IMG/VR virus record: IMGVR_UViG_3300046488_000110
Coordinates: 1 to 51,101 of that record
DNA length: 51,101 bases
Strand: one strand, 5' to 3'
From: a virus
Position numbers and translations under genes: made by a program. This document shows, one piece after another, positions 797 through 49,117 of the stretch (the stretch's first letter is position 1; each line of letters starts with the position of its first letter). Below the pieces are notes generated by a model that was given only the letters and a program-made list of their open reading frames with translations, searched no databases and was not told the DNA's origin.

Positions 797-1681
797 TTAT
801 ACCCTCACTCCTGCCAATAGATTTCCGATATCCTTGAGAGACGATTCTCCCCACGGGAAAAGGTACACATTCCTCAATCCAGCCTCTTGAAGTTTATTGG
901 TCAATTCAATTCCTCTTTTCTGCCCCGGCTCATCATTATCGTAAGCAATTGTGATTTGCTTGACAGTCGCCTGGCGAAGTTTAAATGTCCATTGCTCAGT
1001 CCAGTAATAAATACTGAATGTGGCTAGCCCGACAGCGTCAATCGACTTTAGATCTGTATTCTCCGATACCATCAATGCGTCAATTGGATTTTCACAAATT
1101 AAGGCGTTGCAACCCAAATAAAGTGCATCCTCGTTGTAGAGCGGAAGCAAATCAAGAGTCCAGCCTCCGGATGCCAGCCATTTCGGACAATCGCATTCGA
1201 TGGCTCGACCACGCAGGCAAACCAACGAGCCGCAGTTCCACACAGGAACAATTAATCGCAAGTGGTGGCACTTGCTGGCGGGTAACACCCCTACCCCTAA
1301 TCGATTCTTTTCGATTGTCTCCTGGCTCAAGGGCTTGTATTTATTCCACAGATCGAATCGCTGCGGGTGCTGTTCGCAACCGCGAACAATCTCTTCGCCG
1401 TGAGTGCGCCAACTGGGAATAGCTGGTTGCTTTCTTGGTTTTATTGGCGTACTACGCAAATCGTCAGGAATTCGATGATCGCGCCTCCAATAATATTCTC
1501 TTGGGTCTTTCCATTTGGCATCTGTACACATCCGGCAAAGCCACCGATTCTGACCGGGCTGGACGTGGAAACGATCATCCCCACCGCAAAATGGACAGGG
1601 GCCAGCCCACTCGCCGCCGCCAGACATAGCAACCTTTTTGAGTTGGGTATCGTGTTGAGCATCCAGGAAAAAGTTAATCAT
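797..1681 (-). CDS. DNA primase (CHC2 zinc finger + TOPRIM)
   Basis: The 294-aa protein carries a CHC2-type zinc ribbon near the N-terminus (C29, C32, C49, C52) and a TOPRIM domain in the second half. The TOPRIM shows the acidic motif ICENPIDAL (catalytic Glu) and IAYDNDEPG (DxD for Mg2+). This is the size and order of phage primases that lack a fused helicase, so it should make RNA primers and work with one of the helicases encoded upstream. The start overlaps the HNH gene stop as ATGA, with a GAGG site about 9 nt ahead. The HNH cassette therefore lies directly upstream of primase in the early operon. Confidence 0.85.
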   Translation of the reverse strand: MINFFLDAQHDTQLKKVAMSGGGEWAGPCPFCGGDDRFHVQPGQNRWLCRMCTDAKWKDPREYYWRRDHRIPDDLRSTPIKPRKQPAIPSWRTHGEEIVRGCEQHPQRFDLWNKYKPLSQETIEKNRLGVGVLPASKCHHLRLIVPVWNCGSLVCLRGRAIECDCPKWLASGGWTLDLLPLYNEDALYLGCNALICENPIDALMVSENTDLKSIDAVGLATFSIYYWTEQWTFKLRQATVKQITIAYDNDEPGQKRGIELTNKLQEAGLRNVYLFPWGESSLKDIGNLLAGVRV

Positions 1682-2379
1682 TTGGCAAATCCTCGTTGCT
1701 TCATGAGATTCTCAAAAAAGGATTGCCAATAAGACCGGTTAAAGTTGGTTTTTATGTGACAAAGATTACAAAGAGTTATGCAGTTTTCCGGAGTGGTGTC
1801 ACCTTTGACGTAGTTGATATGATGAACACTATTTCCAGAATTTCCGCAAGTTGCGCAAGTGTAATTATCTCTATCTCGAATAAGTTGCTTGAAAGCTCGA
1901 TTGAAAGTTTTGGGATAAGGCTCGAAGGAGATGCCCCCCTGCCAGGTTGGACTATTTTCCCCTGTTCTATGGATAGACTGCCATTTTCCATTACATTCGT
2001 AAGAACAGCACTTGGAGCTTTCGAACCGATAAGAGTCTACAAAAAATTGTTTCTCGCAAATTTTACAAACGAGTGCAACTTGTCCCCCGCGCCATAAAAC
2101 ATTATTCTCGCCTTGATAGGCTTTGGACTTCCAGGCATTTGTGCATTGTCGGGAACAAAAACGGGCGCTCTTCGCTTTTCGCTTTTCGACTTCAAACGTA
2201 CGTCCACAGACTTCGCAGATTTTCTCGACTTTGCTCCGGCCTCGCTTACGGATTCCAGCGCACTGGTTTGAGCAATACTTTCCTTGCCCCTTTAGTATTT
2301 GACAAGGTCGTACATAAAAAGGTTTTCCACAAACATCACAAGTTTGATTGGGCCGAAACTTCTCATTGCTCTTTCCCAT
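1678..2379 (-). mobile_element. HNH homing endonuclease with zinc-knuckle repeats
   Basis: I start the ORF at ATG 2379 (MGKSNEKFRPNQTCDVCGKP), 7 nt after the structured leader; the open frame farther upstream only reads through that leader. The 233-aa protein has three Cys-rich repeats (CxxCGKxF..CSxxC type), then two NUMOD-like GENxxxWxGG motifs. The C-terminal HNH nuclease reads CATCGNSGNSVHHINYVKG and then TLCNLCH. Cys-rich DNA-binding modules plus a C-terminal HNH are usual for free-standing homing endonucleases. It would nick or cut a genome lacking the cassette. It is inserted between the 99-aa gene and primase, and its stop overlaps the primase ATG. Confidence 0.88.
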
Positions 2380-2386
2380 AACAAAA

Positions 2387-2532
2387 CGCCCTCCACGTGT
2401 GCTGCCGTTGTCGAGACGAACAGCCGAGGACGTAAGTCCACACATGGAGGGCGCTTTGCGCGCAATATGCGATTGTGCGAAACCGGCAGCACTTGAAAAA
2501 CAAAGCGCCTCGATATTCTGTTCGTCTCGACA
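2387..2532 (-). ncRNA. homing-endonuclease leader RNA, copy 1 (146 nt)
   Basis: The RNA would start 6 nt after a TATAAT and end 7 nt before the HNH ATG. The pairing segments are as follows. a (2532-2518, TGTCGAGACGAACAG) pairs with a' (2423-2409), 15 bp perfect. c (2492-2484, GTGCTGCCG) pairs with c' (2407-2399), 9 bp perfect. d (2453-2440, CGCCCTCCATGTGT) pairs with d' (2400-2387), 14 bp with one G-U. The order is a, c, d, a', c', d', so c and d inside P1 pair with bases just after P1. Two local hairpins lie inside: GGCGCTTTG/CAAAGCGCC and GGAC-TTAC-GTCC. d' contains GGAGGG, the ribosome site of the HNH gene, so the d helix would hide it. Confidence 0.75.
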
Positions 2533-2538
2533 AGAACA

Positions 2539-2547
2539 ATTATACCA
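2539..2547 (-). promoter_or_regulatory. extended -10 promoter of HNH leader copy 1
   Basis: TGGTATAAT on the minus strand is a perfect TGn-TATAAT extended -10. No good -35 is present at the usual distance. The hexamer ends 6 nt before the first base of helix a, so transcription should begin at the helix. It lies 3 bp after the stop of the upstream 99-aa gene. Confidence 0.7.
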
Positions 2548-5702: not shown

Positions 5703-5762
5703 GGGACTTTTCGCGCATTACGTTAATAATATTAATTAAAGATGTAATGCGCGAAAAGTCCC
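5703..5762. repeat. 19-bp perfect inverted repeat with AT-only-like loop
   Basis: GGGACTTTTCGCGCATTAC (5703-5721) and its exact complement (5744-5762) flank a 22-nt loop made almost only of A and T. The repeat overlaps the last codons of the 668-aa gene and precedes the nuclease gene by 40 nt. The minus-strand loop contains TATTAT, which could act as a -10. No U-run follows the stem directly, so a simple intrinsic terminator is not well supported. An operator, RNA-processing site or promoter-in-loop device are the alternatives. Confidence 0.85.
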
Positions 5763-7738
5763 TGTTTTTGAACCGTTTTAGGAGCCCGTCCGTGGGTCTT
5801 GGTTTTTACGACGGCCTTCTCCCAGCCCGGCTGGTTTGCAATCAGATCCAGATATTTTGAAGCTGCCCGATATTGGATTCCCAGTTCAACGATGTCCGAT
5901 ATAGTGATGCTGTCTTTTTCGTCCATCAATTTCTGAACTTTTTCCCACTTAAAGATATTGACCCCCACGGGGGCATCCATGATCTCGCGCATGGTCAAGA
6001 GCTCGTCAGGAGGTAAGCTGGGAATAGGAATATTGGTTAAGAGCCAGATATCCACAAGATGGTTGACCGGTCGGCTGCGATGGGCGGCCTGGATGATTTC
6101 GTCCTCGCGCATAGCCTCTAAAACTGTTTGTAAATCCGGATCATTCCAGAAGCCGGAGACCGGGTAAGCGCGCCCCTGACCATCTGGAGCAATATAGTGA
6201 TAAGGTTGCTCGCGACTTATCCATTCAACCCGAAAGGCAGTATCTCGCTCAAAAAAGATCATCTTGGCCATGCGCACCACGGAGTAGATGTCTGGCTGAG
6301 GGGCGCCAACGATAAAGATTGCATCAACATCCTCGTACTCGTTTGTGCCGCGTGCTGCGTAAAAATGGCCTATTTTTATATTCTCCAGCTCAACAACAAA
6401 ATCTTTGTAGCTAATTACCGACGGCATCTGGTAGTTTCGTTCTCGGATAATGCGATTGATAAGATCCTTGGCCTGGCTGGCTTTAATGGTCGTCTTCCCG
6501 TCTTTTAGAATGCTGCTTTTGCCATTGGTCCGATCCACAACCTGGTATATTTTCCCTTGTTGGCGTGCTGTAGCATCGATAACTCTAACTTTGCGGCCAA
6601 ATATTCGCTCGTAGATAGCCGATTGTCCAGTAGCATCCAACCAGATAACGTGAAAAGGGAGCTGTTCTGGTTTATGGCGCAAAAGCAAGGACAAAAAACC
6701 GCCGGCCAGGATTATTCGATGCGGGTATGCCTGTCCGGCTTTTACCTGACCCGCTTCACGTTGTAATAGACTTACCAACGCTGGCAGGTGGAAATAAGAT
6801 ACCTCGCCGGCTTGCTCCGGTCGATGGATGTTGGTACCATAGGCAACTGCTTCAGTCGGAATCTTGTAACTTTGGCAGGCCTGCAGAACGTTATCCGGCC
6901 CTCCTAGAAACTCAAGCAACTCTGGACCCTGGATGCTGGTTTTGGCGTTTTGGGCAATAGTCATCATGTTAAATATGATCTCGGTCATGGCATCTGTAGT
7001 ATCCATACCTGCTGGGAGTATCCAACGTCCTGGGATGCGCCATTCGTGGACAAACGCACCGATCGGGGATTCATCTCCAAATAGAACGGAAAACTGCATA
7101 GGATGACCCATAGCCACATGCTGATGTTGGGTAAAAATAATCCGTTCCGGGCGTTTAGATTGGGCGTGATAAACGCAACCAGTTTTGACATAATCCCAAC
7201 CACAAACGCCCGAGCAAAAATCCATGGCGGCATAGCCTTTATTCAGCCACTCGGATATCTGACTAGCGTACAGACAAGTTTGAATTTTGCCCGTATCTTG
7301 ATCTTCGGTCTGGCGTGGTTGCCATTCATACCATTGGTTTGGCGCATTGCTTTTTGCCAGGATATCCTGGAAAAAATCATGGCGTGGACCGGCGTACTGG
7401 ATTCGATGCCCAGCTGCAGCCAGCTGCTCCACGATTTGAATGGCGGCTGTGGTTTTGCCAATTCCAGGGGATGCTTTTACCATTGCCATATCCTCGGGCT
7501 TTTCCTCTTTTAGATAATCTGTGATCCCGCTCCAAATGATCTGGCGCGCGCTATCAACGGATCCAGCCTGTGGTTTCCAGGTTGGTGGGATACAGGGCAC
7601 AAGTTTTCGTTCCTGAATGTTTGGCGGCTCAATGGTCGGCTTCCAATCGAAGTCGGGCTTTGCTGCCAGAATGCGTTCAACATAAGCGCGTAGCTGCTTG
7701 GACCCTGGGTTTGGGTTTGTCGATGTCGGGTTCTCCAT
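5732..7738 (-). CDS. helicase-like P-loop ATPase of the replication arm
   Basis: The 668-aa protein has Walker A PGIGKTT (91-97, K95), a Walker B-like VLFGDESP, and a late AAHRSRPV segment resembling helicase motif VI. The N-terminal 60 residues are proline-rich. A Cys-rich insertion (CSGVCGW..GCVYH) lies near residue 170. Overall it looks like a phage SF2-related or primase-associated helicase. Which reaction it drives cannot be read from sequence. The start has no good ribosome site and lies just after a strong hairpin (7748-7777), so expression may be controlled there. Confidence 0.7.
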   Translation of the reverse strand: MENPTSTNPNPGSKQLRAYVERILAAKPDFDWKPTIEPPNIQERKLVPCIPPTWKPQAGSVDSARQIIWSGITDYLKEEKPEDMAMVKASPGIGKTTAAIQIVEQLAAAGHRIQYAGPRHDFFQDILAKSNAPNQWYEWQPRQTEDQDTGKIQTCLYASQISEWLNKGYAAMDFCSGVCGWDYVKTGCVYHAQSKRPERIIFTQHQHVAMGHPMQFSVLFGDESPIGAFVHEWRIPGRWILPAGMDTTDAMTEIIFNMMTIAQNAKTSIQGPELLEFLGGPDNVLQACQSYKIPTEAVAYGTNIHRPEQAGEVSYFHLPALVSLLQREAGQVKAGQAYPHRIILAGGFLSLLLRHKPEQLPFHVIWLDATGQSAIYERIFGRKVRVIDATARQQGKIYQVVDRTNGKSSILKDGKTTIKASQAKDLINRIIRERNYQMPSVISYKDFVVELENIKIGHFYAARGTNEYEDVDAIFIVGAPQPDIYSVVRMAKMIFFERDTAFRVEWISREQPYHYIAPDGQGRAYPVSGFWNDPDLQTVLEAMREDEIIQAAHRSRPVNHLVDIWLLTNIPIPSLPPDELLTMREIMDAPVGVNIFKWEKVQKLMDEKDSITISDIVELGIQYRAASKYLDLIANQPGWEKAVVKTKTHGRAPKTVQKQGLFAHYIFN

Positions 7739-11960: not shown

Positions 11961-11982
11961 AGTGTGGTGTTTATGGTAGAAT
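11953..11982 (+). promoter_or_regulatory. extended -10 promoter of HNH leader copy 2
   Basis: TTGGTA (11953-11958), an 18-bp spacer and TAGAAT (11977-11982) preceded by TGG form an extended -10 promoter. Its hexamer ends 6 nt before helix a of the leader RNA, exactly as in the other three copies. It diverges from the main early promoter and overlaps the operator-like array. Confidence 0.7.
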
Positions 11983-11988
11983 AGGGGA

Positions 11989-12087
11989 GTCACAGGGCAA
12001 GCAGTTTTATTTGCCAACAAAAGCCCGCTACTCTACGAAACTGCTGACCTGTGACAAGCAAGGCAAACGTAGGGCGGCGGGCCTTTG
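11989..12087 (+). ncRNA. homing-endonuclease leader RNA, copy 2 (99 nt)
   Basis: Segments in order: a 11989-12007 (GTCACAGG..AGCAGTTT), c 12010-12015 (TTTGCC), d 12018-12037, a' 12038-12055 (AAACTGCT..CCTGTGAC), linker AAGCAA, c' 12062-12067 (GGCAAA), d' 12068-12087. a/a' gives 8+8 bp around a small internal loop, and c/c' 6 bp. d/d' spans 20 positions with two G-U and two A-C. The ATG at 12100 follows 12 nt after d'. Layout, spacer lengths and the TTTGCC/GGCAAA pair match copy 3. Confidence 0.75.
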
Positions 12088-12099
12088 TTTAGAAAATAA

Positions 12100-12621
12100 A
12101 TGGGTGAGCTATCGAGAGCAGAAAAAATGAGAAAAACACTCGAAGAAAGATTTTGGAGTAAGCTAACAAAAACGGATGGCTGTTGGGAATGGGCGGGGTA
12201 TATTGATGAGGATGGATATGGGATCTTTAAAATAAACGGGAACCCATTAAGAGCGCACCGTATTTCTTATTTGCTCTTGGTTGGCCCTATTCCTCCTGGA
12301 TTATTGGTTTGCCATAAATGCGATAATCGTAAGTGCGTCAATCCAGATCATTTATTTCTGGGAACACATCTTGATAATTCTATCGACTGTATAAAAAAAG
12401 GACGTAGAGCAAAGCATCCCAAGCAACCAGCGCGTCCAAATTGTTGTGGAGAGAAAATACCAAGTCACAAATTAACGAATAATCAAGTCATCGAAATACG
12501 TTCCCTGTTGGAAGTGACACCCGTAAGAAAACTCGCAAGAATGTATCATGTTGCTCCTATAACTATTAGGGACATAAAGTTAAATCGAAGTTGGAAACAC
12601 TTGATTGATTTGTCGTCCTAA
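12100..12621 (+). mobile_element. HNH homing endonuclease (HNH_3 type)
   Basis: The 173-aa protein reads ERFWSKLTKTDGCWEWAGYI, then GYGIFKINGNPLRAHRISY and VCHKCDNRKCVNPDHLFLG: the CWxW..AHR..CxxxxCxNPxHLxLGT pattern of HNH_3 phage endonucleases. A C-terminal helix-turn-helix (KLARMYHVAPITIRDIKL) would bind DNA. I keep ATG 12100 because its distance from the leader RNA equals that of the other copies; ATG 12127 is the alternative. The gene is AT-rich and is followed by an intrinsic terminator, so the unit promoter-leader-gene-terminator is self-contained. Confidence 0.88.
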
Positions 12622-24934: not shown

Positions 24935-24981
24935 TCTCCCATGATCTATGTTATAATTATCAAAATATAGATCATGGGAGA
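24935..24981 (+). promoter_or_regulatory. hairpin with internal promoter controlling the GIY-YIG gene
   Basis: TCTCCCATGATCTAT (24935-24949) pairs perfectly with 24967-24981. The loop holds TGTTATAAT, an extended -10 (TATAAT 24952-24957). The 3' arm contains GGGAG (24976-24980), the ribosome site 6 nt before the GTG start. Read-through RNA from the capsid gene should form the hairpin and hide the site. RNA started in the loop (near 24964) lacks the 5' arm and leaves it free. The same logic is known from T4 homing genes. Confidence 0.75.
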
Positions 24982-24986
24982 GAAAA

Positions 24987-25946
24987 GTGGAAAAACAATC
25001 TGGAGTTTATCAAATACTTTGTAAGGTTACTGGAGATAGATATATTGGATCGTCTGGAAATATACAAGCAAGAATAAGAGAGCATATATATGATCTCAGG
25101 CACTCAATTCACATTAATTATATGCTCATGGCAACTTGGGTAAGAAATGGAGAAGAGTCATTTGAGTTTTCAGTTTTGGAAATCGTCAGTGATACCTCTT
25201 TATTGTTTGAAAGAGAACAATATTGGCTTGATCTGCTTAAACCAGAACTAAATATCGCTACTAGTGCAGATAGGTCAGCATATGGTCTAAAGAGGTCTCA
25301 GGAAACGAAAGACAAAATCAGTATTGCTGCTGTAAGGCGACATGCGAATATGTCTGAAAGTAAAAAGAAATATGTAATTGAAAACATCAAGAAGGGACGC
25401 CAGGAATGGTGGAATTCTCTCACTGAAGCCGAACAACAGGAACATATTCGCAGGATTAGCAATCCGCATTCTGAAGAAACAAAGAAGGTTCTTGCTGAAA
25501 AAAGTAAAAACAACAATGCACATTATTGGTTAGGGAAAAAAAGGTCTGATGAAACTATAGCCAAGATGAGAGCCAAAAAACAGGCAGAATGGGATCAGAC
25601 CAAAGCAGAACGTGAGGAAGAAAAATTGCGCAAGCGTGCTGAACTTGAGATAGAAATAGAACAAAGAAAAATAAATAAAGCCGAAAGGATGAGGCGTGTT
25701 CGACTTGGAAAAAAGGCATCAGAAGAAACACGCGCAAAATTACGAGAGGTTGCCCTATCTCAACAACAAGACCCTGAATATAAAAGAAAACACCATGCGG
25801 GGGTGGTAGCTGCAATGAAAGACCCCGAGGTTCTAAAACGCCTAAGCGAATCACACAAAGGCAAAAAGATGTCAGAAGAAGTAAGGGAAAACATGAGTAA
25901 GGCTCAAAAGGAACGCAGGAAACGAGAGAATGAAACTTCTTCCTGA
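24987..25946 (+). mobile_element. GIY-YIG homing endonuclease with NUMOD3 repeats
   Basis: The 319-aa protein starts SGVYQILCKVTGDRYIGSSG (GVY..YIG pair), followed by the conserved R in IQARIREH and E in FEREQYW, the GIY-YIG nuclease core. Downstream are several NUMOD3 DNA-binding repeats (GLKRSQETKDKI, GKKRSDETIAKM, GKKASEETRAKL, GKKMSEEVRENM) separated by Lys/Glu-rich helices. It starts at GTG behind the regulated GGGAG. It is AT-rich compared with the capsid gene it follows, so recently acquired. Confidence 0.92.
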
Positions 25947-26052
25947 TCTTAATAATCCAGTAACTTCAACCGGCGGTATAGGGTCGCACCTGAAGAGCGG
26001 ATCCCCTGGCCGCCTGACCGCCGGTGTTTCCAGGGTCACGAAAGGGACGTGA
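25930..26052 (+). CDS. small Gly-rich protein (40 aa)
   Basis: An ORF from ATG 25930 reads MKLLPDLNNPVTSTGGIGSH, then LKSGSPGRLTAGVSRVTKGT, ending 3 nt before the next gene. It overlaps the last 17 nt of the endonuclease and has GAGAGA ahead. The TGGIGSHL..GSPGRLTAGVSRV phrase looks like a conserved, not random, sequence. It may be the gene that originally followed the capsid gene before the endonuclease arrived. Function unknown. Confidence 0.5.
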   Translation: MKLLPDLNNPVTSTGGIGSHLKSGSPGRLTAGVSRVTKGT

Positions 26053-28430: not shown

Positions 28431-29178
28431 TGCCGGACGCTGGCAGTACCATGCCGGCATTCTACGCCAGGATATCCTGGAGCAGGACCCCTCCGAGTTC
28501 CTAACCTGGCCGACCGTGGTTTCGACGATGTTTGTGGGCGATGGCCCCCAGCTGCGTGAGGAATATACTCAATTGCAAAAATGCGCCAACTGGTTTAGCT
28601 ACGAGCGCGCCGTTCAAGAGGATGGTGTAGGCAGCCCGCCGATTTCCGAATTGGCGCCAGGCATGAACGCCAACCTGCTCCACCAGGTCTACCATTTGAG
28701 CCGTTGGGAAACAGCCACTGGGCGACGTATCAGAGACCTGTCCAGCATTGTAGAGGTGGGTGGCGGATACGGCGCCTTCGCCAAAGTATGTCGCCAACTG
28801 CACTTCGGCGGAAGTTACACCCTGATTGACCTGCCCGAGTTTCTGACCCTACAAGAGCATTACCTGTCTCAAACTTGCGGCATTCAGGGAATAAACTTTG
28901 TTTCAGATCCTGCCAGTCTGCCCACCAAAACCGACCTCCTGGTAGGTATCTACTCCATGTCCGAGATGACCCCACAAGAACGGCAGCCTATTATGAATAA
29001 AGTCACGGCAGATAGCTATTTGCTGGCTTTCCAAGAGGTCTACGACGGGGTAAATAACGATGATTACTTCGCCAATATTCCCGTTAGCCAACCCATGGCC
29101 TGGCGCTGGATGGACGCGGCTGGTATGCCGACCTGTCACTACCTGATCGGCGCGCCCGACTTTCCGGAGGTCATATGA
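28375..29178 (+). CDS. putative sugar O-methyltransferase
   Basis: TTG start behind AAAGGAGG, inside the end of the DegT-like gene (56-nt overlap). The 267-aa protein has the SAM-binding motif I IVEVGGGYGAFAKVC, then LIDLPEFLTLQEHYL and a DLLVGIYSMSEM motif, as in putative sugar O-methyltransferase families found in lipopolysaccharide clusters. It would cap or decorate the glycan made by its neighbours. The exact substrate is unknown. Confidence 0.7.
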   Translation: MNINEMRRRIYHLPSLPPDAGRWQYHAGILRQDILEQDPSEFLTWPTVVSTMFVGDGPQLREEYTQLQKCANWFSYERAVQEDGVGSPPISELAPGMNANLLHQVYHLSRWETATGRRIRDLSSIVEVGGGYGAFAKVCRQLHFGGSYTLIDLPEFLTLQEHYLSQTCGIQGINFVSDPASLPTKTDLLVGIYSMSEMTPQERQPIMNKVTADSYLLAFQEVYDGVNNDDYFANIPVSQPMAWRWMDAAGMPTCHYLIGAPDFPEVI

Positions 29179-31865
29179 AGCTCTTTTTGACGCCTGGCCT
29201 CTCTCAAGTCACGCCGGAGAACGGTATCGGTCAGATCGTGCTGGCTCAGCATCGGTATCTGCCCGGACTGGGTATCCAATTGGTGGACGAGCCACGGGTA
29301 GCGGACGTGATTGCCTGTCACGCCGGTTCTGGCATTACTGAGAAGGTGGATTGTGCGCATGTCCATGGGCTCTATTGGAACGGAGACAAAGAAGGCATTC
29401 AATACGAAAACTGGCACAGCAGGGTAAACCGCAAGGTGATTGACACCTGCAAAAAGAGCCGGATCATCACGGTACCTTCGCACTGGGTAGGGGAGTGCTT
29501 TCGCCGGGACATGCGCATCGATCCTGTGATCATCGGTCACGGCATAGAATTGGGCGAGTGGGGACATATACCAGGCCAGCATTATGGATACGTGCTGTGG
29601 AATAAAAACCGGGGTACAGACGTATGCGACCCGACACCGGCCTGGGAACTAGCCAGCCGCAGCGTGCCGGTGATTTCGACTTTTGCGCCTCAGGGAAAGC
29701 CAGTGATTGATGGTCTGACCATAATCGGCGTTCAGTCTTACCAGGATATGCGGGATATCGTGCGCCGGGCAGAGATCTACCTGGCCACCACTCAGGAGAC
29801 TTTCGGCATCGGAACCCTGGAAGCGCTGGCTGCGGGTGTGCCAGTGTTGGGCTATGACTGGGGCGGCACCTCCGACTTGGTTAAGCATAAGGTGACCGGT
29901 TACCTCGTGCAGCCTGGCGATTTTGATGGACTGTATGAGGGTTACCAGTGGCTACATACCCATCATAAGAAGATTGTCCCGAATTGCATAGGAACAGCCT
30001 CTCACTACGGCTGGCATGCCATCATGGCTCAATATGCGGCGGTTTATCAGGCGCTTCTGGATCCGGAGCCGGACGGATTGGCCGTGATTATTACCAACCA
30101 TAACTACGAGAACTTTGTCGGCGAAGCCATCACAAGTGTTCTGGCCCAAAACGACCCGCCTGCGGAAATCATCGTGGTCGACGACGGTTCAACTGACAAC
30201 AGCCGGGAGGTCATCGCCGGATTTGGAGATAAAGTCCATGCGATCTATCAGGAAAACCAGGGGGTTGCGGCGGCGCGCAACAACGGAATTAGAGCCGCTC
30301 GGCAGCCCTTTATCATCTGTCTGGATGCTGACGATCGTCTCAACAACGAGTACGTTGGCGTGGTACGGCATGCCCTGGCCAGCGATCGCTCCCTGGGTGT
30401 GGCTTATACGGGCTTGGTGATTATCACCGATGATGGACACGAACAGGCAGCGGCGTGGCCGCCTGAGTTTGGCTGGGAAGGACAGGCTACCCCGCACATT
30501 CCCCCATCCAACTGTGTGCCCTGCGCGGCGGCTTTCCGGAAGAGCATGTGGGAGCGATCTGGTGGATATCGCCAGGTCTACGCTCCCGGTGAGGATGCCG
30601 AATTCTGGACACGTGGCCTGTCTGTTGGCTTCAACGCCCGGCTTATCACCAATGCACCTCTGTTCGAATATCGGGTACATAAGCGCTCTGCCAGTCGTAC
30701 CCGCGAGTACGTGCCCATCGACGGTTGGCTGCCCTGGATGCGCGATCAGGAGTATCCGATGGGTGCGCCGGCGCGGCTTATGCCAAAGGTGCGCTCTTAC
30801 GCCAGGCCGGTGATCAGCGTGATTATCCCAGTAGGGCCAGGACACGCCAAGTACCTGCTATCGGCGCTGGACAGCCTGCTCGGACAGACCTTGCGAGAGT
30901 GGGAAGCCATCGTGATTGAGGATGGCAGCCAGGTTGATGACGAACTCACACCCTATCCGTTCGTGCGCCTGCTGCGCACCGAAAAAGGTCCGCTCGGCGC
31001 CGGCGCTGCCCGTAACTTGGGTATCCAGGCTGCCCGGGCTCCGCTGATCTATTTCCTGGACGCCGACGATTACCTGACGCCCGATGCACTTAGAAAATCA
31101 CTGACCTTATTTGCAAAGACCGGACGCTACGTGTTCAGCGACTATATTGCCCGCGACGGAGACGGCCAAGAACAGATCATGCAAATCATGGACTACGAGC
31201 GCCAGGCCTATCTGGATACCCGCCAAATTCATGCTGTTTCTGCTCTGGTTCCGACCGCCTGGGCGCGCGATATTGGCGGCTTTGATCCAGATCTGCCGGG
31301 CTGGGAAGAGTATGAATTTTACATGCGAATGGCAGCCAAGGGTTACTGCGGAGAGCACCTAACCGAGCCACTCTTGGTCTACCGAACACACGCCGGCACG
31401 CGCCGCAACCTGAGCCAGACTAACCAGGCTAAGTTGATTACTCTATTCGAGAAACGATTTCCAGGAGGTATGACAATGCCAGGCTGTTGTGGCGGAAATG
31501 CAGAAGCTCTGCTTGCTGCGAAACGAATGATTCAAAGTGAGGTACAAATTATGGCTGAAATAGAAGCATCTCAACCCGGATCGGGAATGGTCCGGCTGGA
31601 ATTTATCGGCGACTGGGAAGGACCGGTACGCTTTATGGCCAACGGCCGTGAGTATTACGGCGCTAATACTCCCCTGTATAAATACATGGACGCGCCGGAG
31701 GAAGACGCCGTGATCCTGGAGCGAACCGGAAAGTTTCGCCGGCTGGTATTCAAATCGCCCGAACCGCCAGCTCCATTGGGGCCGCTGCCCGAACCGCAGA
31801 CGGTCAAAGAGGAACCGATGACAGCAGCGAAAAAGCTGCCTGCCAAGAAAGGATCCAAGAAATGA
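29175..31865 (+). CDS. three-domain glycosyltransferase with virion-like C-terminal domain
   Basis: The 896-aa protein joins three domains. The first is a GT4 (GT-B) domain (residues 1-290; ETFGIGTLEALAAGVPVLGY). The second is a GT2 domain (about 298-540; AVIITNHNYENFV, VVDDGSTD, CLDADD). The third is another GT2 domain (about 555-765; VIIPVGPGHAKYLL, VIEDGSQVDD, FLDADDYL). After a Cys-Cys-Gly linker, the last 100 residues (RLEFIGDWEGPVRFMANGRE, ending AAKKLPAKKGSKK) resemble the complete 76-aa protein encoded next. The gene overlaps both neighbours as ATGA. It should build an oligosaccharide; the C-terminal domain may dock it on the particle. Confidence 0.85.
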   Translation: MKLFLTPGLSQVTPENGIGQIVLAQHRYLPGLGIQLVDEPRVADVIACHAGSGITEKVDCAHVHGLYWNGDKEGIQYENWHSRVNRKVIDTCKKSRIITVPSHWVGECFRRDMRIDPVIIGHGIELGEWGHIPGQHYGYVLWNKNRGTDVCDPTPAWELASRSVPVISTFAPQGKPVIDGLTIIGVQSYQDMRDIVRRAEIYLATTQETFGIGTLEALAAGVPVLGYDWGGTSDLVKHKVTGYLVQPGDFDGLYEGYQWLHTHHKKIVPNCIGTASHYGWHAIMAQYAAVYQALLDPEPDGLAVIITNHNYENFVGEAITSVLAQNDPPAEIIVVDDGSTDNSREVIAGFGDKVHAIYQENQGVAAARNNGIRAARQPFIICLDADDRLNNEYVGVVRHALASDRSLGVAYTGLVIITDDGHEQAAAWPPEFGWEGQATPHIPPSNCVPCAAAFRKSMWERSGGYRQVYAPGEDAEFWTRGLSVGFNARLITNAPLFEYRVHKRSASRTREYVPIDGWLPWMRDQEYPMGAPARLMPKVRSYARPVISVIIPVGPGHAKYLLSALDSLLGQTLREWEAIVIEDGSQVDDELTPYPFVRLLRTEKGPLGAGAARNLGIQAARAPLIYFLDADDYLTPDALRKSLTLFAKTGRYVFSDYIARDGDGQEQIMQIMDYERQAYLDTRQIHAVSALVPTAWARDIGGFDPDLPGWEEYEFYMRMAAKGYCGEHLTEPLLVYRTHAGTRRNLSQTNQAKLITLFEKRFPGGMTMPGCCGGNAEALLAAKRMIQSEVQIMAEIEASQPGSGMVRLEFIGDWEGPVRFMANGREYYGANTPLYKYMDAPEEDAVILERTGKFRRLVFKSPEPPAPLGPLPEPQTVKEEPMTAAKKLPAKKGSKK

Positions 31866-35932: not shown

Positions 35933-36619
35933 GTGAATTTTTACTTATACCAATACACCCACAAGATAAGTGGCAAGTCGTATATCGGGACAACGATGAA
36001 TTTAGAGCGACGCCAAAGGGAGCATACCAGAAGCGCAAGTTGTGCGCGAGCATTTAATAGGGCTGTGAATAAATATAGTATCGAGGCTTTTAGTTTTCGC
36101 GTGCTCGCTATTCTGGATAATGCGGGCGAGGCAGCGCGAACTGAACAGGCAGCCATCATGGCATTTGGAACTTTAGCACATAATGGGTACAACCTCAATG
36201 GGGGCGCGCCATTTACAAAATACCAAGGTCCAACTTCTGAAGAAACACGTGCTAAACAATCTGCTATAGCTATCGGTCGCGCGTCTCCAAATAAGGGTAA
36301 AAAGTTCTCACCAGAATATTGTCAGAAATTATCGGATTCACATAGAATAGAAGTGCTTTCGCCTAAATCTCGCAAAAACATGAGTGACGGTCAACGTAAC
36401 AGTGAAAAGTGTCACCAAAAAATAGACAAACTTCATGCGGCATTTAGAGGTAAGAAACACACATCAGAACATTGCCAAAAAATATCTAGTGCCCTTAAGG
36501 GTAAGCCACGCTCTCCGGAAACTTGCCAAAAAATATCTGATGCTGCGAAACTACGCGAAGCTAAAAAAAGAGAAAATAAGGCTAATAAAAATATAACAGA
36601 GGCGATGTATGGCACTTGA
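35933..36619 (+). mobile_element. GIY-YIG homing endonuclease between tail chaperone and tape measure
   Basis: GTG start behind AGGA. The 228-aa protein begins FYLYQYTHKISGKSYIGTTM (YLY..YIG), with RRQREH and an EQAAIMAF glutamate, the GIY-YIG core. Several NUMOD3 repeats follow (GPTSEETRAKQ, GKKFSPEYCQKL, GKKHTSEHCQKI, GKPRSPETCQKI). The gene is AT-rich, overlaps the tape measure start by 11 nt, and separates two genes that normally adjoin, so it is an insertion. It lacks the promoter-leader seen on four other endonuclease genes. Confidence 0.92.
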
Positions 36620-45977: not shown

Positions 45978-46067
45978 TTACTTGTAAACCTCCCGGTGAG
46001 CTGCCTTTAGATCATCGGGAAATATTTTTGCATAGATACGGGTAGACGCTGGATCATGAGCGGCTAT
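45978..46067 (-). pseudogene. possible C-terminal remnant of a tyrosine integrase
   Basis: An open frame without a start codon reads AAHDPASTRIYAKIFPDDLK and then AAHREVYK, TAA. This resembles the end of tyrosine recombinases, where GHxDPxTTxxYAHxxPexL carries the catalytic Tyr (here Y in RIYAK). It is preceded by a stop and overlaps the end of the GIY-YIG gene. Only 29 residues remain, so the match is suggestive. No other integrase sequence is present in the genome. Confidence 0.35.
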
Positions 46068-46443
46068 TTAGTGGGGGGTCGATTTTCCTAATCATGAGAT
46101 TTTCACAACGCCGAATATCAACACGATCTAGGCAAAATCCCATACTTGCAAACTCGTCTTTTAGTATAATTCTACAATCATCAAGAGTATACAATTCGAT
46201 AATCCAATCCAAAGATGCAGGCAAGTTTTCTATAACTTCTCTACCAGCTGGACTATTCCCGAAATGCTTACCCTCATAATTCGTGCCTATATGGGAACTC
46301 CAGTTGTCAAACCATCTGTTCCAGACGCCTCTCTTTGATATGCCAATATAAAGAATATTTTCAGCATTCTTGAGTACATAGAGTTCGGCATCAATATCGT
46401 CGAATTTCCCAGACATGAAATCTTTGAATTTTAGGGTAATCAT
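46054..46443 (-). mobile_element. compact GIY-YIG endonuclease
   Basis: The 129-aa protein has ELYVLKNAENILYIGISKRG (LYV..YIG), WNRWFDNW and a conserved late E (ILKDEFASMG), the minimal GIY-YIG fold without NUMOD repeats. The start at ATG 46443 has AAGGAT ahead and lies 11 nt below the structured leader (copy 3). The gene is AT-rich. It resembles stand-alone GIY-YIG proteins of phages; homing is inferred from its shared leader with the other endonuclease genes. Confidence 0.78.
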
Positions 46444-46454
46444 ATAATCCTTAA

Positions 46455-46560
46455 CCAGAAAGCCGCTATCTACGTTTTGCCAATTCTTGCTGAGGGAATC
46501 GGGTCTACCGTAAATAGCGGCTCTCTGGTGGCAAATAAAAAGACCCTTGATTCCCTCAGC
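46455..46560 (-). ncRNA. homing-endonuclease leader RNA, copy 3 (106 nt)
   Basis: Helix a starts at 46560 (GCTGAGGGAATC-AA-GGGTCT) and pairs with AGACCC-GATTCCCTCAGC: 18 bp with a 2-nt bulge. c TTTGCC pairs with c' GGCAAA. d (CCAGAGAGCCGCTATTTACG) pairs with the last 20 nt (CGTAGATAGCGGCTTTCTGG), 20 bp including two G-U. The order is a-c-d-a'-c'-d', with linkers TTTTTA before c and AAGAATT after a'. The start codon of the GIY-YIG gene follows after TTAAGGATTAT. Confidence 0.8.
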
Positions 46561-46566
46561 ACCTGT

Positions 46567-46575
46567 ATTATACCA
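46567..46575 (-). promoter_or_regulatory. extended -10 promoter of leader copy 3
   Basis: TGGTATAAT on the minus strand, inside the 11-nt run GTGTGGTATAAT-like shared with copy 1 (TGTGGTATAAT). The hexamer ends 6 nt before helix a. A -35 is poor (TGGAAC at 16 nt), as expected for an extended -10 promoter. Confidence 0.75.
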
Positions 46576-47237: not shown

Positions 47238-47594
47238 TCATCCACGCCTGGCGGGGCTTGCGCTGGCCAGGGCAGCGGTGGGCGATCCTCTAAACGGTGA
47301 ACAAATAAAACAACGCTTCCGCCTTGGATGGTTGCTTATAAAGTATTGACCACACTCGCATAGGCTCGCCTTGATGACTTGTGCCCCATCTGGTATCTCG
47401 CCCTCCATAGCAACAACTTGAGCCATTTCAGGAAGGTTAAGTTTGTGTCGTATCTTTTTGCCGGGGTTGTACCCCATCGCGAGCAAGCGGGCCATTGCCT
47501 TGTTAATACCGTATGGCTCAGCTGCTTTTTGCCAGCTTTGCGTGGTTTCGTGGATTTCTCGGATTTCGCAAGACAGTTGCTCTAAAGCTCGCAT
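47238..47594 (-). CDS. helix-turn-helix and zinc-ribbon protein, possibly frameshifted at its end
   Basis: ATG 47594 follows CAGGAA. The 118-aa product has WQKAAEPYGINKAMARLLAM (helix-turn-helix-like) and a zinc ribbon (CECGQYF..KRCFIC). The annotated frame ends in low-quality sequence (SPTAALASASPARRG). One frame over, the DNA reads AHRCPGQRKPRQAWMSPEEV and DRRLEFIRRNYE, which looks more natural and runs to the next gene. A single-base indel near 47290 could join them. Confidence 0.6.
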   Translation of the reverse strand: MRALEQLSCEIREIHETTQSWQKAAEPYGINKAMARLLAMGYNPGKKIRHKLNLPEMAQVVAMEGEIPDGAQVIKASLCECGQYFISNHPRRKRCFICSPFRGSPTAALASASPARRG

Positions 47595-47624
47595 AGCGTT
47601 TCCTGATGTGCCCGTAAATTCCAT

Positions 47625-48377
47625 TTACTGTACGCCAGAATAGAAGTTGTCAACCTGATAATCCGTTAGAGACCTGATCCAATCAATCTGATCCTGAGAC
47701 AGATTGAACCATTCGTATTTCACGCGCTCTTTAGAGAATTTCTCGTGCATATAAAGTTCTGCCTTTATATAGTTCGCACTAGCAAAGTGATGGACTAGTT
47801 CAGTCTTATACGGGATGTCTCTATTCAACATTGTTAGGCGGTTTTGGACATTCCGAGCGCGACCTATTTTGTATAGGCCGTTTTCTGCAATCATCAAATA
47901 TACAAATCCGGGCCGCTTTTCTCCTACGATGGATTTGCTGTCATATCCACATTTTAGTCTCTCTTGTTCCAACCGTTTGGTATCTTTTCTATTTTCTTCT
48001 CTGGCCAGTCTGTCTTTATTAGCCCGTTCTAGCTCTGCCTCTATTATCGGGTTTATTGGCTTTTCTTCTTCTTCGATTTCTTCTTCGGTATCAACCTCGT
48101 TCAACTTGCCATCAATATACTCTTCAATTTCTTCGGTATCTGGTGCGCTAAATTCGTGTTCGCAAAACGGGCAGACAAGTTCATCCATTAAATCAACAAA
48201 ATAAGGATAATAGGATTGGCAATTATCGCACCGGAGAACTTTTCCACCCATGTATTCAAATTCTTCTAAGAGATAATCCTCGAGGGCAGCCATCTTTTCT
48301 AGTCCATCGTTGAAGTTTCCTATACCTCTTACAAGTTCGGCTTCGGTGTAAACTGTGTAATAGCTTTTATCTTCCAT
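47625..48377 (-). mobile_element. T5orf172/GIY-YIG-superfamily endonuclease
   Basis: I start at ATG 48377, which has TTGAGG ahead and lies 11 nt below leader copy 4; the longer frame reads through the leader and its promoter. The 250-aa protein has an N-terminal zinc ribbon (RCDNCQSYYPYF..CPFCEHEF), an acidic coiled linker, and a C-terminal T5orf172 domain (GFVYLMIAENGLYKIGRARN, LVHHFASANYIKAELYMHEK, YEWFNLS). This is a GIY-YIG relative often acting as phage-borne homing or DNA-binding enzyme. Confidence 0.85.
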
Positions 48378-48388
48378 ATTTTCCTCAA

Positions 48389-48497
48389 CCAAAAAACCGT
48401 CATCCTGCGCCTTTCCGATTCCTTGCTGAGGGGAAGCGATATAACGCAAAATGACGGTTCTTTGTTCGGAAAATAAAATACCGCTTTCACCCTCAGC
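48389..48497 (-). ncRNA. homing-endonuclease leader RNA, copy 4 (109 nt)
   Basis: Helix a begins at 48497 with GCTGAGGG, as in copy 3, and pairs with ATATCGCTTCCCCTCAGC. c TTTCCGA pairs with c' TCGGAAA (7 bp), where copies 2 and 3 have TTTGCC/GGCAAA: a compensatory change. d (CAAAGAACCGTCATTTTGCG) pairs with CGCAGGATGACGGTTTTTTG, 20 bp with three G-U or U-G. Spacers match copy 3 within 1-2 nt. The T5orf172 ATG follows after TTGAGGAAAAT. Confidence 0.8.
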
Positions 48498-48503
48498 ATC
48501 CCA

Positions 48504-48510
48504 ATTATAC
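48504..48510 (-). promoter_or_regulatory. promoter of leader copy 4
   Basis: GTATAAT preceded by GGG; the TATAAT ends 6 nt before helix a. The TAA inside it is also the stop codon of the upstream membrane-protein gene. A weak TTGGGA lies 18 bp upstream as a possible -35. Confidence 0.65.
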
Positions 48511-49104
48511 CCCATTTTCGAGTTCAATCCCAATCTCCCTCGCAAACCTTGACCGGCTGTCTGCCGTCAGCCACAGCGCCGGGTCATTGCCGTGCGCCGG
48601 TATTGCATACCCCTTCCGGCACAGCTCACCGGTCAACGCCTGGGCAAAGTCACGCTGGCCGGGGGTGTCTGAATAGTTGCCGATCTTCTCGCAGCGGGTG
48701 TAGGAACTCCGCTCCAGGAACTCCATGATGAAGCCATAGGGCAATACCGCCTCGCTCGTGATCAGCACATCCTCCCGCCCAGCAGGCGTAACGACGTGCC
48801 CAACCCTCAGCGAATGTTCCCATTTCGGTATCACGGCCAACGCCTCGGGCGACAAAAAGCGCACCTTATCGGCGGCCACGCTTGTTGGCGTGATACTGTC
48901 CGAGTAGCGCCGCTCCCTGTGCTGGTGCTCGATCACGAGAAGCATCCATTCAATCGACAGAAACATAGCCGACACTGCGCTGCCCATGAAGAGCAGCCCC
49001 GGGAAGACCATCCAGCCCTGGCCAGGGTAGTAGACCATCAGCGCCAGGCAGACACACGCGAGAAGGGTCATGAAAATCGTCGCAAACCGCTTAGGTTCAT
49101 ACAT
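48505..49104 (-). CDS. two-TM membrane protein with soluble C-terminal domain
   Basis: GGGGAGG lies 6 nt before ATG 49104. The 199-aa protein has transmembrane helices near residues 8-26 and 30-55 and then a soluble region rich in charged residues (YSDSITPTSVAADKVRFLSP onward). No family is recognised. Its stop codon is formed by the promoter of the following leader copy 4. Confidence 0.7.
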   Translation of the reverse strand: MYEPKRFATIFMTLLACVCLALMVYYPGQGWMVFPGLLFMGSAVSAMFLSIEWMLLVIEHQHRERRYSDSITPTSVAADKVRFLSPEALAVIPKWEHSLRVGHVVTPAGREDVLITSEAVLPYGFIMEFLERSSYTRCEKIGNYSDTPGQRDFAQALTGELCRKGYAIPAHGNDPALWLTADSRSRFAREIGIELENGV

Positions 49105-49117
49105 ACCCACCTCCCCA

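Follow-up and report, generated by a model that had tools for sequence, protein, structure and literature searches.

Why should a phage place one and the same elaborate arrangement of complementary strands in front of several genes for DNA-cutting enzymes, and what would such an arrangement do there? In the window, by which we mean the whole 51,101-nucleotide stretch of viral DNA analyzed here (IMG/VR record IMGVR_UViG_3300046488_000110), four leaders (c1 to c4) were found directly 5' of nuclease genes, two of which encode unrelated HNH proteins and two GIY-YIG-type proteins. Each leader lies between a -10 box and a nuclease start codon and comprises 111-154 nt of structured 5' sequence. The strand order A-c-d-A'-c'-d' is the same in 4/4 leaders, and helices A, c and d all cross one another, as in a pseudotrefoil. 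Every copy thus reads as a -10 box, six bases, the strands A, c, d, A', c' and d', and the start codon, with helix A beginning at the predicted transcription start (+1) or, in c1, one base earlier. The sequence likeness between copies runs from approximately the extended -10 box to the start codon, and the extended -10 region is TGTGGTATAAT in both c1 and c3. Because the -35 elements upstream of these -10 boxes are weak or absent, the leader promoters are predictions. The features are as follows.

48504..48509, minus strand: c4 -10 box, TATAAT
48497-48377, minus strand: c4 leader, from the predicted +1
48478..48497, minus strand: c4 helix A, 5' strand, at the predicted +1
48466..48472, minus strand: c4 helix c, 5' strand, TTTCCGA
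48445..48466, minus strand: c4 helix d, 5' strand, its first A common to c
48425..48442, minus strand: c4 helix A, 3' strand
48412..48418, minus strand: c4 helix c, 3' strand, TCGGAAA
48388..48409, minus strand: c4 helix d, 3' strand, its U-rich end adjoining the SD (GAGG)
47625..48377, minus strand: c4 gene, GIY-YIG-type nuclease of 250 aa (T5orf172 / MUG113; PF13455 1.6e-14, PF10544 1.8e-11)
46567..46572, minus strand: c3 -10 box, TATAAT
46444..46560, minus strand: c3 leader, +1 to start codon, SD AAGG
46560-46542 (A), 46535-46530 (c) and 46529-46509 (d), minus strand: c3 5' strands
46505-46489 (A'), 46481-46476 (c') and 46474-46454 (d'), minus strand: c3 3' strands
46054..46443, minus strand: c3 gene, 129-aa GIY-YIG-like protein (LYVL...ILYIGIS motif, by eye)
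11977..11982, plus strand: c2 -10 box, TAGAAT (extended TGG)
11989..12099, plus strand: c2 leader
11989-12007 (A), 12010-12015 (c) and 12016-12037 (d), plus strand: c2 5' strands
12038-12055 (A'), 12062-12067 (c') and 12068-12089 (d'), plus strand: c2 3' strands
12100..12621, plus strand: c2 gene, HNH_3 endonuclease (PF13392 1.4e-12; phrog_1872 1.2e-34)
2539..2544, minus strand: c1 -10 box, TATAAT
2380..2533, minus strand: c1 leader, longer than the others
2533-2518 (A), 2511-2501 (extra strand e) and 2491-2484 (c, then a hairpin), minus strand: c1 5' part
2458-2439 (d), 2423-2408 (A'), 2407-2400 (c') and 2401-2382 (d', with SD GGAGGG), minus strand: rest of c1
1678..2379, minus strand: c1 gene, HNH endonuclease with zinc motifs (phrog_1271 4.7e-30; PF01844 3.4e-4)

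The spacing of the strands is close to constant in c2, c3 and c4 (in that order, A-c 2/6/5 nt, c-d 0/0/0, d-A' 0/3/2, A'-c' 6/7/6, c'-d' 0/1/2 and d'-ATG 10/10/10), and the c1 linkers differ (26, 25, 15, 0, -2 and 2, from A-c to d'-start). Across the copies, the 3' end of d' is located 2-10 nt 5' of the start codon, and helix d-d' either reaches into the ribosome-binding region or stops 0-10 nt short of it. The SD lies inside d' in c1 only and just past d' in c3 and c4; it is unrecognisable in c2. The extra strand of c1, GAGGCGCTTTG (2511-2501, minus strand), is able to pair, within helix A, with 2458-2447, the 5' half of d; this additional option besides d-d' was not seen in c2-c4.

The proteins encoded downstream share less than the leaders do. 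The c1 HNH protein is unrelated to the c2 HNH protein, and the N-terminal part of the c4 nuclease is zinc-finger-like. We read the c3 protein as GIY-YIG-like by motif only, as it had no significant Pfam match and reached a phrog_1111 endonuclease only at E 0.2. The c2 start codon is uncertain, a second ATG at 12127 being possibly the true start. The protein families differ, yet HNH and GIY-YIG genes alike bear the leader, and so what the four loci have in common is the leader rather than a type of gene. Open frames span the leader in c1 and c4 but not in c2 and c3, and a leader-peptide reading was dropped. At c4, the gene boundaries are tight: as the sequence-only reading had noticed, the promoter and the upstream gene share a codon, the TAA at 48507-48505 that ends ORF 48505-49110 being part of the TATAAT at 48509-48504. 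This sharing is confined to c4, and c1-c3 are without it. At the other end, the c4 nuclease stop codon directly adjoins the ATG of ORF 47238-47624. Such boundaries fit a cassette placed between two genes; of the sequence-only reading's proposal of insertion precisely where a gene ends, the shared TAA is the part confirmed. Neither neighbor (ORF 48505-49110 or ORF 47238-47624) had a detectable phage homologue, and a search for a relative lacking the cassette at the c4 site found none.

The sequence-only reading, whose four copies are presumably c1-c4, had further claimed that c3 and c4 differ by compensatory changes and that pairing, rather than sequence, is under selection. Both leaders indeed open with GCTGAGGG at the predicted +1, and helix c changes from TTTGCC/GGCAAA in c3 to TTTCCGA/TCGGAAA in c4 as described. 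A structure-based alignment with a count of substitutions, which that reading had proposed, bore out the claim that helix d diverges while staying complementary: between c3 and c4, 9 of 20 pairs are identical, 3 have changed on one side, 8 on both sides and none is broken. Two details were too strong. The spacers were said to be kept between c3 and c4, which is correct for c-d (0/0) and d'-ATG (10/10), whereas the four others are off by 1 nt; and the statement that d departs from Watson-Crick pairing by wobbles only is true of the inner 20 pairs, whereas an A-G mismatch lies near the outer end of the 22-nt d of c4.

The central claim, selection on pairing, held in every control. In a MAFFT alignment of c2-c4 with sequence as sole input, helix d of c2 and that of c4 occupied identical columns (22/22 pairs), 19 of the 21 d pairs of c3 joined them, and the outer eight A pairs coincided in all three copies. 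Over helices A and d, 96.6% of cells were paired compared with 86.0 +/- 2.4 after shuffling, and 13/30 pairs showed two-sided changes compared with 5.7 +/- 1.7; neither observed value was reached in any of 500 shuffles. Sliding the partner strand by 1-3 columns lowered the paired cells from 96.6% to 39-50%. Helix A alone was 100% paired, with two-sided changes at 5/8 pairs. When d strands were exchanged between copies, pairing was lost, from -29.5 to -38.6 kcal/mol with their own partners to -8.2 to -22.0 kcal/mol with swapped ones, a penalty of some 8 to 30 kcal/mol. A change on one strand of a helix is thus matched on the other strand, which indicates that the folding itself is under selection. 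Helix c-c' is short and, with a combined chance probability of 2.8e-5, is likely, although less certain than A and d. Because no leader was found outside this virus, the covariation argument is limited to copies within one genome; these copies are still informative, since their d strands have diverged by 7-11 substitutions per 20.

The arrangement is also far from random in the window. A purpose-written scanner for compact A-c-d-A'-c'-d' arrangements ranked the four leaders as its top four sites (scores of 94.7, 93.6, 81.4 and 74.4), with the next-best real site at 62.2 and a maximum of 64.6 over 28 dinucleotide-shuffled windows; it found no other convincing crossing-helix leader in the window. 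Across the window and 83 loci, the best score outside this virus was 73.8, in a GC-rich sequence, so the score alone is no proof for the weakest copy, c2. The c2 leader is supported beyond its score by its position, its predicted promoter and its alignment to c3 and c4. A covariance model (R1) built from c2-c4 recovered the unseen c1 at E 0.013. Taken together, the scanner results against shuffles, the partner swaps and the covariation test ruled out chance inverted repeats.

What could such a fold do? When growing prefixes of the leader were folded, A-A' appeared once A' was complete and d-d' once d' was complete, in 4/4 copies. Helix d-d' alone forms the minimum-free-energy core in all copies, and with the helices enforced, the ensemble favored the d state over the A state by 3.9, 5.3, 10.9 and 14.0 kcal/mol in c1-c4, respectively. 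The predicted start-codon accessibility was lower in the d state than in the A state (0.12 vs 0.32 in c1, 0.54 vs 0.67 in c2, 0.36 vs 0.56 in c3 and 0.54 vs 0.58 in c4), the change being small in c2 and c4. ViennaRNA does not score crossing folds, and A-A' and d-d' may therefore coexist. By rough A-form geometry, complete A and d helices could stand together in c3 and c4 provided that c stays unpaired, and barely so in c1; in c2, L1 is too short for them. In c2-c4, strands c and d adjoin, as do c' and d', so that pairing of c with c' and closure of the outer half of d-d' would be mutually exclusive.

We put at roughly one in two the probability that the leader acts in cis, each copy being a promoter and leader of its own, to hold down or time nuclease expression. 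During transcription, A-A' would close first and enclose d in its loop, so that d' and the ribosome-binding region stay accessible, a state from which the nuclease could be expressed. The more stable d-d' would then close on the ribosome-binding region and constitute the off state; with its A-rich start, GC core and U-rich end, it may terminate transcription as well. Two turns of d' around the looped d would, for topological reasons, require A-A' to open, and c-c', a competitor of the outer half of d-d', may stabilize the open form. Nuclease output would then be set by the rate and the extent of the leader's passage between the folds. As d would be trapped in the closed A-A' loop, we propose a time-gated leader, the fold of which probably limits when the DNA-cutting nucleases are made. 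If the fold acts as proposed, it would be a natural example of topological exclusion, occurring during transcription, between two helices that have no base in common. A bolder suggestion, which we make only tentatively and with considerable doubt, is that phage regulatory RNAs include a new class to which the four leaders would belong: a portable promoter-leader module with three long crossing helices, which would exert topological control over four endonuclease genes of unrelated families, a helix closed early blocking a later one with which it has no base in common.

Some of the same observations can be read differently. Helix d-d' could be an intrinsic terminator just 5' of the gene, with the earlier A-A' serving as antiterminator by topology, so that the product would be mainly a short leader RNA with regulated read-through. 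Its being the most stable helix, with d beginning A-rich and d' ending U-rich (6-7 T in 9) in 4/4 copies, would suit such an attenuator; however, the U tract is interrupted and lies within the helix, the d-d' loop holds 30-50 nt, and a terminator scan, which accepts loops of 3-8 only, did not flag d-d'. We consider an attenuator unlikely. The leader may instead be no switch and simply a compact structural fold, in which A-A', c-c' and part of d-d' stand together as a static pseudotrefoil that provides a nuclease-resistant 5' end, a site for protein binding or a means by which the encoded nuclease represses itself. The short, nearly conserved linkers of c2-c4, the retention of three crossing helices in four copies, the better-than-chance c-c' and the geometry that allows A and d together in c3 and c4 all speak for it. 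In c2-c4, by contrast, linkers of 0-2 nt at c-d and c'-d' would preclude c-c' together with the whole of d-d', the short L1 of c2 does not admit full A with full d, and the linkers of c1 are quite different; we doubt that a static fold is the answer.

Two simpler readings fare worse. If d-d' alone mattered, as a plain RBS-adjacent hairpin of the T4 or seg43 type, A and c would be incidental. Although d-d' is the core of every minimum-free-energy fold and such hairpins are known for homing-endonuclease genes (PMC2988022), the covariation of helix A and its location at the predicted +1 in every copy (one base earlier in c1) make this very improbable. A DNA-level element, such as a cruciform or a recombination or homing unit, would account for inverted repeats at the boundary of mobile-type genes and for the shared TAA overlapping the c4 promoter. 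Among the non-Watson-Crick pairs, however, G-U far exceeds A-C on the sense strand (about 10 vs 2; one-sided binomial estimate, p about 0.02), which points to sense-strand RNA; moreover, the predicted transcription start coincides with the beginning of the helices, and the proteins scanned included no transposase-like one. We give a DNA-level element hardly any credence.

Several known systems come near to these leaders, the T4-type RBS hairpins of homing endonucleases being the nearest. RNA control of phage homing endonucleases is already known (PMC2988022, PMC3014915), and RNA structures that block the RBS are established for them (PMC2988022). Like the T4-type RBS hairpins of I-TevI, I-TevII, I-TevIII, segB and Aeh1 mobE, the present leaders are structured, have a nearby promoter of their own and precede GIY-YIG and HNH phage homing-endonuclease genes (PMC2988022, PMC3014915); a nuclease gene lies downstream in c1, c2 and c4, and in c3 by motif only. 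In contrast, the T4-type hairpins are single and occur only on read-through RNA, the internal promoter skipping the 5' arm, whereas here the -10 box precedes helix A, the whole structure is predicted to be transcribed and three helices cross. T4 thus controls its homing endonucleases by single hairpins, whereas here one leader of rare strand order serves both HNH and GIY-YIG genes. In seg43 of Aeromonas phage 25, a stable hairpin stands immediately 5' of an unsequestered RBS (PMC2988022), as does the very stable helix of c3 and c4; seg43 has one hairpin, and nothing like helix A or c is described there. The T4/T2 gene 32 leader pseudoknot, which was described in 2010 as possibly the sole viral example in translational autoregulation (PMC3014915), likewise has a pseudoknot strand arrangement in a phage mRNA leader and controls translation. 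It is, however, of the H type, with two coaxial stems, and is bound by gp32, whereas the present leaders have three mutually crossing helices, two of them of ~16-22 bp. The strand order is identical to that of pseudotrefoil (ABCABC, 'L') pseudoknots, which are rare (51 RNAs vs 1688 H-type in one survey) and have a mean length of 74 nt (PMC3390330).

Metastable mRNA leaders are represented by the MS2 maturation gene and hok, and in classical switches the exchanging helices share a strand. Helices A and d of the present leaders have no nucleotides in common, and any exclusion between them would be topological. That folding during transcription can decide SD opening is described for the AapA3 toxin mRNA (PMC6733600).

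Searches beyond this virus returned no second case. Against Rfam 15, the leaders matched no family (c2-c4 at both thresholds, c1 at the gathering score), and the sole Rfam match in the window, int-alpA at 25971-26035, lies away from them. Three alternatives, a group I intron, an HDV-like RNA and HEARO, were set aside, since their strand order or helix sizes are wrong for these leaders and Rfam gave no match. Of 77 viral relatives of the c2 HNH protein, one was the same virus and the other 76 lacked a leader near the gene; protein scans with the c1, c3 and c4 products gave no useful relatives. Three degenerate leader patterns searched in IMG/VR and one in GTDB genomes yielded the same virus or chance matches only, and blastn of the c3 and c4 leaders against phages yielded none. 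Model R1 recovered only the same virus, a positive control, over 94 records (92 viral), and no leader outside the same virus over 791 genomes belonging to the same phyla as two arbitrarily chosen bacterial MAGs. The leader was absent from a distant phage (35% TerL). One 24-kb contig (G001) that carries it is the same virus, 99.996% identical, and added no variation. In Rfam and the open-licence papers searched, no leader of this shape is described on such genes, and those papers yielded no described phage-leader family with the pseudotrefoil shape.

The same phage has other features of interest. A GIY-YIG gene with NUMOD3 (24987-25946, plus strand), among rightward genes, is preceded by a hairpin at 24935-24981 (plus strand) with 23-nt arms, 87% complementary, which holds a TATAAT (24952-24957) in its 5' arm and an SD in its 3' arm. 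This is the arrangement described for T4 I-TevI and Aeh1 mobE, in which the internal promoter yields RNA without the blocking arm (PMC2988022), and the hairpin looks as if it acts like that of T4 mobE / I-TevI. Two sorts of RNA leader thus appear to serve genes of the homing-endonuclease type in this phage. Also among rightward genes is a GIY-YIG homing-endonuclease-like gene (35933-36619, plus strand; phrog_314, 2.6e-28), and neither kind of leader was present in the upstream stretch read. The int-alpA RNA (RF02996, 36.5 bits, plus strand) is located directly 3' of the GIY-YIG/NUMOD3 gene, a curious position. A 28-nt inverted repeat (5703-5762, 86%, 4-nt loop), close to the 3' terminus of leftward gene 5732-7738, is perhaps a terminator or operator. 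Finally, the rightward gene cluster encodes an 896-aa protein (29175-31865, plus strand) with several glycosyltransferase-like stretches.
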